This document shows positions 16,592 through 20,808 of a DNA stretch of 64,000 nucleotides, piece by piece (within the stretch, counting starts at the first letter, position 1; each line of letters starts with the position of its first letter). Both the position numbers and the translations under genes were made by a program. Under the pieces are notes generated by a model, which ran no database searches, was not told where the DNA came from, and saw nothing but the letters and a program-made list of their open reading frames with translations. The DNA lies in NCBI RefSeq assembly GCF_013408305.1, contig NZ_JACBZS010000001.1, positions 2,542,001-2,606,000 of the forward strand. The letters are read 5' to 3'. The DNA comes from Naumannella cuiyingiana (lineage in GTDB: Bacteria; Actinomycetota; Actinomycetes; Propionibacteriales; Propionibacteriaceae).

Positions 16592-17944
16592 TCAGCCCTC
16601 GCCCAGCGCAGCCTCGTAGTGGCTGGTGACGTGGGCTGCGGGCAGCGCCTTGTCGTAGATCGCGATGTCGTCCAGGCGTCCCGGGAAGGGCAGGTTGCGC
16701 GGCATCGGCTCCTCCGGCCAACCGTCCAGCTGGCCCCAGCCGACGCGCCAGAACCCGTCGTAGTACTGCACCTCGCTGGTCGGCTTGCTGAGCTTCTCGC
16801 CGTCGATGATCAACTGCATCGTGCCGTCACTCGCGCGGGTCGCGGCCAGGTGGTGCCACTTCCCGTCGTCGTATCGCTTGGTGGTCTCGATCCGGTGTGG
16901 ACCGTACGGGCCGACGCCGAAGATGACCGTGCCTTTGGTCGTCATGTAGACGACCCGGTCGTAGTAGGTGTCGTAGTTGGTCGGATAGAGCCCGAAACCG
17001 ATCATCCGGCCGCCGCGACCGGCGACGGGATTGTTGAACCACAGCTCGAGGCTGAACTCTCGCGGTCCCGCGTTGAGGATCCGCGGCTGCAGCGTCATGT
17101 GCGGGCCGTTGTAGTTGGTGTCGCCGGCAACCGTGAACGATTGATCACTGTTCGGGTGCGAGCCCGGCGACGCCGTGGTGATGCCGTGGTAGTCGGTGGT
17201 CTGGCCGTTGCCGCTGGTGTCCAGCGTCGCGTCGCCGGACTCGCCCTCCCAGAACACGAGCGGCTTGTCCGACAGCACCTGCTGGCGATAGGTCATTCCT
17301 GGTGCGCTGACGAAGGAACCCGAAGCCTGGGTGGTGTCGGAGAAGCCCGCGTAGGCCGGGCGGAACGCGGGCACGACGGTCGTCGCGATCAGGACGGTCG
17401 CGGCGGCGCCGGACGCGGCAGCGCCGATGCCGAGGCGGCGGCTCAGGGGTTTTTCCGAGGCGAGCAGCAGCAGCACGCCGAGAGTGACGACGCAGCCGGC
17501 GAGGGCGCCGATGTTCCCGGCGCGCCACCAAAGGCCCGGCAGCCCGAGGAGCGGGATCCGCAACACCCCGACACCCCGTACCGCGTCGGGGGAGACCGGG
17601 GTGGAGTCGGCGGCCGGGTTGGCGTCGCCGCGCAGGACCAGTCGCCCGTCGGCCTCGACTCGCTCGAGGCGGTGCAGGCGCAGCTTGTCCGGGTGGTCGG
17701 GATCTGTGACCAGGGGAACCTGACCGGGAGCCAACTCATCCGCCGCGGCGGGTTTGGTGACCACCACGTCGCCGGTCACGATCGCGGGCTCCATCGACCC
17801 AGATGACACCGTCGTCGGCATCCAGCCGAGGATCATCGGCGCGACGGCCCAGAACGCCAGGCCCACGCAGGTGGCCAGCAGCAACCGGGCGAGCAGCATG
17901 ATCACCAATCGCGGTGACGACGGTGCCGTGCGGTCGGGTGACAT
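16592..17944 (-). CDS. SipW-type signal peptidase I fused to a C-terminal LamG-like domain
   Basis: 450 residues. The N-terminal part is a signal peptidase of the ER/archaeal (SipW) type: a membrane helix near residues 13-40, the Ser nucleophile S50 in SSGSMEP, His91 in KLRLHRL where bacterial LepB has lysine, and Asp107 in RGDANPAAD. Two further membrane helices lie near 143-160 and 170-190. Residues about 225-450 form a LamG/concanavalin-like beta-sandwich (FSLELWFNNP, GKWHHLAATR, GRLDDIAIYDKAL). It lies 63 nt after the TasA-like gene, so it probably processes that protein. The fused lectin-type domain is unusual and could hold substrate or bind glycan at the outer surface. It converges directly on ppx. 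Confidence 0.86.
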   Translation of the reverse strand: MSPDRTAPSSPRLVIMLLARLLLATCVGLAFWAVAPMILGWMPTTVSSGSMEPAIVTGDVVVTKPAAADELAPGQVPLVTDPDHPDKLRLHRLERVEADGRLVLRGDANPAADSTPVSPDAVRGVGVLRIPLLGLPGLWWRAGNIGALAGCVVTLGVLLLLASEKPLSRRLGIGAAASGAAATVLIATTVVPAFRPAYAGFSDTTQASGSFVSAPGMTYRQQVLSDKPLVFWEGESGDATLDTSGNGQTTDYHGITTASPGSHPNSDQSFTVAGDTNYNGPHMTLQPRILNAGPREFSLELWFNNPVAGRGGRMIGFGLYPTNYDTYYDRVVYMTTKGTVIFGVGPYGPHRIETTKRYDDGKWHHLAATRASDGTMQLIIDGEKLSKPTSEVQYYDGFWRVGWGQLDGWPEEPMPRNLPFPGRLDDIAIYDKALPAAHVTSHYEAALGEG

Positions 17945-18007
17945 GATCGCTTGTCCTCTAGGGCTGGTCGGCTGCGAGATGGCCCAGCGGTTCCGGGGGA
18001 TGGGGGA

Positions 18008-18577
18008 TTACTGGTTCTGCGCCTCCCACACGAAGTTGACCTTGGCGGTCCCGCCCTGAGCGGAGTTGGGGGTGTCGTCGCTCAGCGTGTAGGCGACGGT
18101 GTAGGCCTGCTTCTCGCCCTCGCCGCCGGCGGTCGCCCAGGAGCCCGCGCCGGTGGAGAAGTTGGTCTTGGAAGTGTGGAACTCGTTCAGCGTGCCGTCG
18201 AAGATCGTGTCCTTCGTCGCCGCATCGCACGACGCGGCCTGGGTGATCTTCAGCGACAGGTGCTGATCCAGGTTCTTGGTGGCCTCGCCCGCCTCGGCGT
18301 ACAGCCGGACATCGGACGGCAGTGAGCCGTTCGAGGTGACGGTCAGGCACTTGGAGCCGCTGTCACCGGGCTTGAGGTTTGTCACATCGAACATGGCCAC
18401 GCCGTTGTCGTCATCGGTCAGTGCAACGCTCCCGCTGGCCCAGGAATTGCCCGGGTTGTCGGTGCGGGCGCTGAACGCCGAGTACGAGCTCTGCGCCACC
18501 AGCAGTCCGCTGACCGCGAGGGCGGCCGGAATCACAGCGAACTTGGCGGCGCGGGCGAGGCGAGGGGAAACGGGCAT
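18008..18577 (-). CDS. TasA/camelysin-like secreted protein with SipW-type signal peptide
   Basis: 189 residues. The N-terminus has the pattern of SipW-dependent exported proteins: a basic start, the hydrophobic AVIPAALAVSGLLVAQ, then SSYSAFSARTDNPGN and ASGSVAL. The rest is predicted beta-rich with FDVTNLKPGDSGSKCLTV, typical of the TasA/CalY superfamily, which forms fibres or surface coats in Bacillus. Two cysteines could form a disulphide. ATG 18577 has GAAGGAG 6 nt upstream. The signal peptidase-LamG gene follows, giving a two-gene unit like the sipW-tasA pair. Fibre formation is inference from family. Confidence 0.8.
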   Translation of the reverse strand: MPVSPRLARAAKFAVIPAALAVSGLLVAQSSYSAFSARTDNPGNSWASGSVALTDDDNGVAMFDVTNLKPGDSGSKCLTVTSNGSLPSDVRLYAEAGEATKNLDQHLSLKITQAASCDAATKDTIFDGTLNEFHTSKTNFSTGAGSWATAGGEGEKQAYTVAYTLSDDTPNSAQGGTAKVNFVWEAQNQ

Positions 18578-18631
18578 CTACGCTCCTTCGTGGGGGCCGT
18601 GGGTGGCCGGGGATCGTCCCGGATGAAGGAG

Positions 18632-18660
18632 ACTCTACAACCAAACAGTTTGGCTATCAA
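18632..18660 (-). promoter_or_regulatory. Promoter of the TasA-like operon with a palindromic operator in its spacer
   Basis: On the minus strand, -35 TTGATA (18660-18655) and -10 TAGAGT (18637-18632) are separated by 17 bp. The spacer contains the perfect palindrome CCAAACTGTTTGG (18653-18641). A protein bound there would block RNA polymerase. The MarR gene immediately upstream is the obvious candidate repressor; a tandem GTTTG half-site motif also lies in front of the MarR gene (19331-19339). Confidence 0.65.
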
Positions 18661-18729
18661 GTCAGTCGATAGGCGAACAACTCGTCAGTAGTGTGACTCG
18701 ATGGTGATGCGACCTCGCTGCCGGGCGGG

Positions 18730-19230
18730 TCAGGGTTTCCACGCGCGCAGTTGGTCGGCAAAGGCCGCCGTGAACCGCTCGAGCTCGCGGATCTGCTCGG
18801 GCTTGAGACCGTCGAAGGCGGTGCCGGCCGCCGAGGCGTACCGCTCGCGGACGCCGCGAACGATGTCGGTGCCCCGGGGCGTCAGCCGAAGCAGGATGCT
18901 GCGCCGGTCGGCGGGGTGTGGTTCGCGGTTCACATAGCCCGCCCCGACCATCCGGTCGACGAGCGCCGTCGCCGAGCCGGTGGTGATCGACAGCCGGGTC
19001 GCGAGGTCCTTCGGGGTCACCGGACCGTCGTGGTCAAGGTGCAACAAGGTGTTGAACTCGTGCAGGCTGAGGTTGATCTCCTTGGCCAGGGTGGCGCGGA
19101 CCCGCTCATTGGCCAGCGCGAGCCGCCCGACCTGATCCATGAACCCGAGCACCTCCGCAGATGCCGGCGGCCGGCCATTCCTGCTCGGCGTCGATGTCCC
19201 CTGCGAAGAATCGTCTGTGAACCGAGGCAC
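18730..19230 (-). CDS. MarR family transcriptional regulator
   Basis: 166 residues with a winged helix-turn-helix: NLSLHEFNTLLHLDHDGPVTPKDLATRLSI leads (around residues 52-82) into TTGSATALVDRMVGAGYVNR as the recognition helix and DRRSILLRLTPRG as the wing. The first 28 residues are polar and probably disordered. GTG 19230 has GGGGAG 9 nt upstream, with a TAGAGT -10-like element at 19325-19320. The gene lies just upstream of the TasA-like operon in the same direction, and the palindrome between -35 and -10 of that operon is its likely target. Ligand unknown. Confidence 0.9.
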   Translation of the reverse strand: MPRFTDDSSQGTSTPSRNGRPPASAEVLGFMDQVGRLALANERVRATLAKEINLSLHEFNTLLHLDHDGPVTPKDLATRLSITTGSATALVDRMVGAGYVNREPHPADRRSILLRLTPRGTDIVRGVRERYASAAGTAFDGLKPEQIRELERFTAAFADQLRAWKP

Positions 19231-19392
19231 GTGCGATTACTCCCCTGTCGAAAGACTGTCCGAGCCGGCTACCCCGTCCGAGTCGGGCAGCCACCGTTCC
19301 CCGTGACGGTGGTGGATCCACTCTACCCGAGTTTGTTTGACCGGCGAGTTCCTTGAAAGGCGAGTCATCGCCGCGGCGCTGTTGCGCTGAGC

Positions 19393-20808
19393 TCAGGTTT
19401 CGCGGTCGGCCATGAACGCGTCGACCTCGGCGCGGTCGGCGCGCAGCCGCGGGTCGTTGCGCAGATAGTGCGCCGTCTCCCGGGCGACCAGACCGGACAA
19501 GATCAACAAGCCGATCAGGTTCGGGATGGCCATCAGCCCGTTCATCACGTCGGAGAAGTTCCACACCACCGCGAGTGGCACGGTGCAGCCGACGAACACG
19601 ACGAGGGAGAACAGCACCCGATAGGGCAGTACGCCGCGGCGCCCGACCAGTCGCTCGACGCATCGCTCGCCGTAGTAGGCCCAGCCGAGGATCGTGGAGA
19701 AGGCGAACATCACCAGCCCGAGCGTGACGATCCAGTGCCCCCACTCGCCCGGCAGGCCGCGGCTGAACGCCTCGCCGGTCATCGTCGCGGCGGCGTCCTC
19801 GCCGCCGGTCCACACGCCGGTGGTGACGATCACGAGTCCGGTGCAGGTGACGACGATGATCGTGTCGATGAATGTCTGCGTCATCGAGACCAGGCCCTGG
19901 CGTACCGGATGGGTGGTCTGCGCGGACGCCGCCGCGATCGCCGCCGAGCCCATCCCGGACTCGTTGGAGAAGATGCCGCGGGCCACGCCGTACTGGATCG
20001 CGACCATGATCACCGAGCCGACGAAGCCGCCGACCGGAGCCGTTCCGGTGAAGGCATTGCCGAAGATCTGCGCGAGGGCGGCCGGCACCTGGGGGGCGTT
20101 CACGATCAGGATCCACAGCGCGCCGAGGACGTAGAAGACGATCATCACCGGGACGAGCGCCGAGGTGACCCGGCCGATCGAGCGGATGCCGCCGACCAGC
20201 ACGACCAGGGTGAGCACGGTGAGCACCGCGCCGGTCAGCCAGAGCGGTACGCCGAAGGAGGACTCCAGGTTGGCCGAGATCGAATTGCCCTGGGTCATGT
20301 TGCCGATGCCGAAGGAGGCCAGGAAGGCGAGCACGGCGAAGGACAGGGCCAGGAATTTGCCGAAGCCGCCGCCGATGCCGCGCTCGAGGTAGTACTGCGG
20401 TCCGCCGGAGCGCTCGCCCGCGGCGTCGGTGGTGCGGAAGCGTACGCCGAGGAACGCCTCGGAGTATTTCGACGCCATCCCGACCAGGCCGGTCACCCAC
20501 ATCCAGAACAGCGCGCCCGGCCCGCCGATCGCGATCGCCGTCGCCACGCCGACGATGTTGCCCGTGCCGACGGTGGCCGCGAGCGCCGTGGTCAGCGCCT
20601 GGAACTGCGAGATGTCGCCCGAGTCCTCGGCGTCGTCGTCCTTGCGCTGGATCAGCGCGAGCCGCAGCGCCGGGCCGAGTTTGCGCAGTTGGATGCCGCG
20701 CAGCCGGATGGTCAGCACCAGGCCCGTACCGAGCAGCAGTGGGATCAGGATGAACGGCCCCCAGATCACCGAACTGATCGAGCTGAGCACGTCCTCCAGT
20801 GCGTCCAT
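19393..20808 (-). CDS. Alanine/glycine:cation symporter family protein (AGCS)
   Basis: 471 residues with about eleven membrane helices. Family landmarks are TALAATVGTGNIVGVATAIAIGGPGALFWMW (residues 73-103), GGPQYYLERGIG, FGIGNMTQGNSI and GVARGIFSNESGMGSAAIAAA. AGCS proteins import L- or D-alanine or glycine with Na+ or H+. ATG 20808 has GGAG about 9 nt upstream. The ion and amino acid used cannot be deduced here. It is a single gene with 387 bp of non-coding DNA in front of it. Confidence 0.95.
   Translation of the reverse strand: MDALEDVLSSISSVIWGPFILIPLLLGTGLVLTIRLRGIQLRKLGPALRLALIQRKDDDAEDSGDISQFQALTTALAATVGTGNIVGVATAIAIGGPGALFWMWVTGLVGMASKYSEAFLGVRFRTTDAAGERSGGPQYYLERGIGGGFGKFLALSFAVLAFLASFGIGNMTQGNSISANLESSFGVPLWLTGAVLTVLTLVVLVGGIRSIGRVTSALVPVMIVFYVLGALWILIVNAPQVPAALAQIFGNAFTGTAPVGGFVGSVIMVAIQYGVARGIFSNESGMGSAAIAAASAQTTHPVRQGLVSMTQTFIDTIIVVTCTGLVIVTTGVWTGGEDAAATMTGEAFSRGLPGEWGHWIVTLGLVMFAFSTILGWAYYGERCVERLVGRRGVLPYRVLFSLVVFVGCTVPLAVVWNFSDVMNGLMAIPNLIGLLILSGLVARETAHYLRNDPRLRADRAEVDAFMADRET

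Follow-up and report, generated by a model that had tools for sequence, protein, structure and literature searches.

The locus analyzed here raises the question of why, in an actinobacterium, a signal peptidase should continue into a LamG-like domain beside a gene for a TasA/camelysin-like protein. The window, i.e., the whole stretch of DNA that was analyzed, comprises 64,000 nucleotides of Naumannella cuiyingiana. An initial annotation of its sequence had proposed that the LamG part could serve the peptidase as an accessory domain, linking processing with assembly. The other possibility considered below is that the LamG part is a substrate of the enzyme to which it is attached.

The fused gene and its TasA-like neighbor

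The peptidase and the LamG domain are encoded by a single uninterrupted frame, in which the ER-type signal peptidase makes up the first 165 residues and the LamG domain the last 220. The main features are as follows:

16592..17944 (-), fused gene: ER-type signal peptidase, internal SipW-type signal and LamG cargo, 450 aa (open frame; Pfam and NCBIfam; SEC11 profile match)
17852..17908 (-), peptidase TM1, aa 13-31 (hydropathy; helix in the AF2 model)
17795..17797 (-), catalytic Ser50 (invariant in 28 relatives; SGSMEPA aligned to SEC11)
17672..17674 (-), catalytic His91 (invariant in 28 relatives)
17456..17512 (-), TM2, aa 145-163 (hydropathy; AF2 helix 134-162)
16607..17275 (-), domain of the LamG (concanavalin A-like) type, spanning about aa 224-446 (PF13385; profile against the PDB)

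The fusion recurs in dozens of genomes among the loci of relatives and is thus not a sequencing accident. Ser50, His91, D107 and D113 were all invariant in an alignment of 28 relatives, and a PDB profile search with these peptidases returned only the ER-type subunits SEC11A/C (E down to 1.6e-17). With its Ser-His pair, SGSMEP-type motif and TM anchor, the N-terminal part is an ER-type (SipW/SEC11 kind) signal peptidase of predicted activity, as the initial annotation had stated. It would work like SipW, yet it is not filed as a Bacillus SipW equivalog by the NCBI cut-off, as it scored 40.1 bits with NF046067 against the 190 required. With TIGR02228, the fusion reached 47.1 bits, just below the cut-off of 51.85, which many of its relatives exceed. 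Matches to TafC, sod_Ni_protease and similar weak profiles were below cut-off and were disregarded.

The LamG assignment was confirmed by Laminin_G_3 (PF13385), which matched residues 281-439 with E=1.1e-15 and 58.5 bits (Pfam cut-off 27.6), and by a profile of the cargo family, which matched the S-layer-associated LamG structure 4qvs, neurexins and pentraxins in the PDB. A search of the fused protein against the genome contigs gave a remote archaeal LamG as its sole match.

The gene upstream of the fusion lies head to tail with it on the minus strand, and the following features were assigned:

18008..18577 (-), exported protein of 189 aa, TasA/camelysin-like, separated from the downstream fusion by 63 bases (PF12389; best fold matches to 5of1 and 5of2)
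18473..18487 (-), site SYS33^A34-F35 in the TasA-like protein, of the SipW type (sequence; in 24 relatives, A34 is invariant and F35 almost invariant)
18730..19230 (-), regulator of the MarR family, upstream and co-directional, linked to the module by position only (PF12802 and PF01047)

The TasA-like protein scored 36 bits with camelysin PF12389 (Pfam cut-off 22.5), and its site reads SYS-AFSARTDNPGNSW. The model predicted from its single sequence, with a low confidence (pLDDT 56), had the TasA structures 5of1 and 5of2 as the top two of 350,542 PDB chains (E about 5e-4, probability 1.00), which points to a TasA-type fold. The sequence profile alone gave no significant match in the PDB (E=0.23), and the score with the TasA equivalog NF046066 was 18.1 bits against an NCBI cut-off of 450.

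The pairing of fusion and TasA-like gene is found in most relatives. In clade I, one of the two clades of fused peptidases described below, the TasA-like gene is directly upstream of the fusion in nearly all loci examined; it lies 680 bases away in L065 and on the other side in L142, and it was not found at the L144 locus. Elsewhere in the set, L096 (485-2819, plus strand) carries three tandem TasA-like genes upstream of a single standalone SipW-like gene. The families, the TasA fold match and the gene order support a TasA-type surface or fiber module with a dedicated SipW-like peptidase, in agreement with what had first been proposed.

In the same-genus genome G001, the divIC-DUF501-ppx block is kept and both the fusion and agcS are absent, which indicates that the module is accessory. 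The region 16592-20808 of the window is thus a variable spot beside core genes. Since the module, with a GC content of 0.67-0.71, falls only a little below its flanks, no claim of horizontal transfer is made from composition.

The internal signal and its predicted cleavage site

The continuity of peptidase and LamG part had been read correctly; what had been overlooked is that a third TM with a SipW-type cleavage site lies at the join:

17372..17428 (-), TM3 (aa 173-191), forming the hydrophobic core of the internal signal of SipW type (hydropathy; AF2 helix 166-202; conserved in relatives)
17342..17356 (-), predicted cleavage site AYA199^G200-F201 (residue counts in curated fused proteins and pattern-test controls, below)
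17285..17347 (-), predicted start of the released cargo, aa 200-220, with a TasA-like donor-strand pattern F201...F211 (residue counts, below)

This hydrophobic segment is preceded by a short positive loop, SEKPLSRR, and its end reads FRP-AYA-GFSDTTQASGSF. The site, AYA^GFSDTT, has Ala at P1 and Phe at P2' and is of the SipW type, with the TM, small-x-Ala and aromatic P2' of SipW-type substrates. Judged from its residues, the layout after TM2 looks like that of a SipW-type signal peptide, and the fusion would have the order enzyme, internal signal, cargo. The AF2 single-sequence model of the fusion (pLDDT 44) was too poor for reading the reach of TM3 to the active site or the sandwich fold, and for a fold search. 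In B. subtilis TasA, a Phe at P2' goes with poor cleavage by LepB and with processing by SipW (PMC10269814).

Conservation of the site was followed in 80 regions around SipW-like genes taken from relatives in the order, class and phylum. In two peptidase clades of the tree, the C-terminal extension opens with a third TM and a SipW-type site, and 49 fused relatives from these clades were curated by eye; as they are mutually related, the following counts are not independent. Ala was found at P1 in all 49 and an aromatic residue (F/Y/W) at P2' in 46, the other three having none, with mostly T or S at P3'. A second [FWYL] follows at +10/+11 from P2' in 45/49, a spacing that matches that of the donor-strand residues F29 and F39 of TasA, which contact neighboring subunits in TasA fibers (PMC9674648).

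In a pattern test, 44/49 fused proteins were positive versus 16/69 other signal-peptide-like N-termini and 21/91 SipW TM1 segments, the positive control being 82/101 TasA-like proteins; the rows are related, and the p-values are therefore optimistic. Four of the five misses (L119-L122) arose because the script mistook TM2 for TM3; three of these have an aromatic P2', and L121 has Met. A profile of the N-terminus of standalone TasA-like proteins matched 30/63 C-extended peptidases at at least 10 bits, with 0 matches among reversed, shuffled, N-terminal-part and unfused controls. The window fusion, which is not among the listed matches of at least 10 bits, is a weaker case with a canonical site. 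Fifteen other C-extended SipW-like proteins, set apart after inspection, have other layouts and no such site.

The internal strand also resembled the TasA-like strand of the same operon (permutation p=0.001), a weak result given that relatedness was ignored and several sites were mispicked. An automatic caller of the first AxA site was rejected, as it placed an aromatic residue at P2' in only 41/101 TasA-like positive controls, and the pattern test was used in its place. Likewise, the ranks of a PSSM built from standalone substrates were not used because its control set contained unlabeled real substrates. TIGR04088 matched none of the internal sites tested; the adjacent TasA-like protein escapes it as well, so that the model is blind to this TasA-like lineage, and such proteins are under-annotated.

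Cargo exchange, split genes and rival readings

The cargo behind the internal signal differs between relatives. Most members of clade I carry LamG, and four carry tandem bacterial Ig domains; these four form one branch (support 100/96) inside the LamG-bearing group, which indicates that the cargo changed while the signal stayed. Clade II, which includes the second locus of the window's own genome, has TLA-AFSD followed by a small cargo that matches no known family. On plasmids, the cargo consists of Ig repeats in two Arthrobacter fusions and of a GH26 glycosidase behind SEA-AFTGST in a Pseudarthrobacter fusion, and the upstream gene product of all three has a SipW-type start. In the three plasmid records, the fusion gene is named after its cargo alone (glycosyl hydrolase, Ig-like protein), which makes this class easy to miss. 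The public annotation of the Pseudarthrobacter fusion (L161, 4073-5536, plus strand) begins at the Met of SGSMEP and omits the first TM and the catalytic Ser.

The second SipW locus of the window's own genome (G000:C1, about 2472.2-2475.6 kb; L004 6195-9592, minus strand) encodes a standalone SipW-like peptidase, two SipW-type substrates that match TIGR04089 and TIGR04088, and a second peptidase-cargo fusion, whose site is TLA^AF and whose cargo belongs to no known family.

A split form was found in L146, L147 and L148, where the peptidase chain terminates behind TM2 and its stop codon overlaps the beginning of an independent cargo gene. The product of the latter opens with a SipW-type signal (TYA-AFFATTSNPGNSF and like), and two of the three cargos have weak Ig-like matches. 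As read from these gene layouts, the split form shows that the fused form would correspond to a peptidase and a secreted SipW-type substrate joined by stop loss. It should be noted that the split peptidases share one half of the tree with clade II and do not lie beside the window's clade, so that the comparison is one of architecture and not of immediate ancestry.

Other C-terminal partners were seen in the locus set. In L136 (2306-3700, minus strand), a SipW-like peptidase is fused to a cytoplasmic-side EAL domain (PF00563, E=9e-26), which would tie signal peptidase activity to cyclic-di-GMP. A SipW-like peptidase in L099 (3560-4453, plus strand) carries at its C-terminus an Hpt-like domain that scores just below cut-off, and on the Arthrobacter plasmids L163 (6729-7106, plus strand) and L162 (6645-7049, plus strand) the fusion is immediately followed by Hpt-like or response-regulator genes; these three cases form a recurring link to a predicted phosphorelay. 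SipW-like or S24-like peptidases fused to DUF5305, with no internal SipW-type site, are encoded by L153 (82-1740, plus strand) and L156 (2292-4280, minus strand). The architecture is similar in L155, L157 and L158, the DUF5305 assignment coming from L153 and L156 only.

Cargo exchange and the split form bear on the reading closest to the initial annotation, namely that TM3 is a permanent, uncut anchor and that the LamG domain stays on the peptidase, where it would dock glycan or fiber subunits and couple processing to assembly. A third TM does tether the LamG domain, and among the other C-extended SipW-like proteins there are some that have a further TM at their end and look membrane-retained. 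However, an uncut anchor would have no need for A-x-A^x-F and the conserved strand pattern, whereas 45-49 of the 49 curated relatives have retained them. The LamG domain, moreover, sits substrate-like behind its own internal SipW-type signal, at a position occupied elsewhere by Ig repeats or a glycosidase and, in three genomes, by the product of a separate secreted passenger gene. Given the internal signal, the cargo exchange and the split genes, LamG as an accessory domain is not the best reading, and we consider a permanent anchor unlikely.

The site could also be a relic of gene fusion, or be cut by the housekeeping signal peptidase, the fusion itself having no special function. The existence of both split and fused forms suggests that the loss of a stop codon readily yields a fusion. 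Cleavage by the housekeeping enzyme is disfavored by the P2' aromatics, with which E. coli LepB cleaves poorly (PMC10269814). A relic, for its part, would hardly be expected to persist across families, classes and cargo types, with cargo identity to the window down to 27-43%, and we regard this reading as quite improbable. Enzymes with a cleavable site in their own chain often regulate themselves, and the internal site is conserved, but a pseudo-substrate or one-time activation switch that occupies the active site until cut, and whose point is control of the peptidase, leaves the conserved folded cargo, the cargo swaps and the split genes with the signal off the enzyme unexplained and is the least probable of the three. 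The joint conservation of P1, P2' and +10/+11 through changes of cargo argues against all of these readings.

Proposed mechanism and known systems

The reading that we favor, and consider likely from the sequence comparisons, is that of a self-processing ER-type (SipW-like) peptidase that carries its own substrate C-terminally and releases a LamG surface cargo as a TapA-like partner of a TasA-type fiber. TM1 and TM2 would place the Ser-His active site outside the membrane, and TM3, as an internal SipW-type signal, would put the LamG domain on the same side. The peptidase, in cis or on a neighboring copy, would then cut AYA199^G200-F201. The enzyme thus probably cuts off and releases its own passenger, a LamG protein of 251 aa beginning with the short TasA-like strand F201...F211.

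By analogy with Bacillus, the released cargo is probably a TapA-like partner of the TasA-type fiber. TapA of Bacillus, the other SipW substrate there, differs from TasA in fold but has an N-terminus similar to that of TasA and starts TasA fibers by donating it; it is scarce, like SipW, and the tapA and sipW genes overlap (PMC10151520). The fused cargo would likewise be tied in number to its peptidase and has a donor-strand-like start. Its F201...F211 strand could slot into TasA-like subunits from the upstream gene, as that of TapA does, so that each peptidase molecule would yield a single LamG tip, cap or adhesin, with a presumed surface role for the LamG domain.

A broader proposal, which we put forward tentatively and with some doubt, is a modular secretion device of the Actinomycetota in which a self-releasing fusion supplies exactly one cargo per peptidase, be it LamG, Ig repeats or a glycosidase, and this cargo caps or starts a TasA-type fiber by a TasA-like donor strand, so that the number of peptidases would set the number of fibers and the function would be exchangeable. 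If the proposed mechanism is true, enzyme and product are tied 1:1, the locus offers a natural system for cis-cleavage by an ER-type signal peptidase, and TasA-type fibers with swappable functional parts extend to actinobacteria. In the published literature, as covered by open-license papers, we found no account of a type I signal peptidase with a cleavable substrate of its own attached.

The window fusion shares with the SEC11/ER-type family (TIGR02228) the Ser-His active site, the SGSMEP motif and the SEC11A/C profile match, and differs from it by the additional TM3 and a cleavable-looking cargo. Proteins with a SipW-dependent-type signal (TIGR04088) and RER_14450-type exported proteins (TIGR04089), such as the substrates encoded at the second SipW locus of the same genome, have the same layout of a hydrophobic stretch, small-x-Ala^x-aromatic and a strand. 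In these proteins, however, the signal is N-terminal, whereas it is internal and attached to the peptidase in the window fusion, and neither the window TasA-like protein nor the internal sites tested match the two models.

The closest known systems are tapA-sipW-tasA of B. subtilis and sipW-calY of B. cereus, in which an ER-type SipW-like peptidase likewise adjoins a TasA/camelysin-like protein. As in tapA-sipW-tasA, there is another exported substrate of SipW type that differs in fold, and the window cargo resembles TasA with its F29/F39 in having F at P2' and another large residue about 10 positions later. By the NCBI cut-offs (40 versus 190 bits for the peptidase, 18 versus 450 bits for the TasA-like protein), the module would work like a SipW/TasA module and is not a Bacillus SipW or TasA equivalog. 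Unlike in tapA-sipW-tasA, the peptidase has the second substrate as part of its own chain, and this substrate is LamG, Ig or GH26 instead of TapA.
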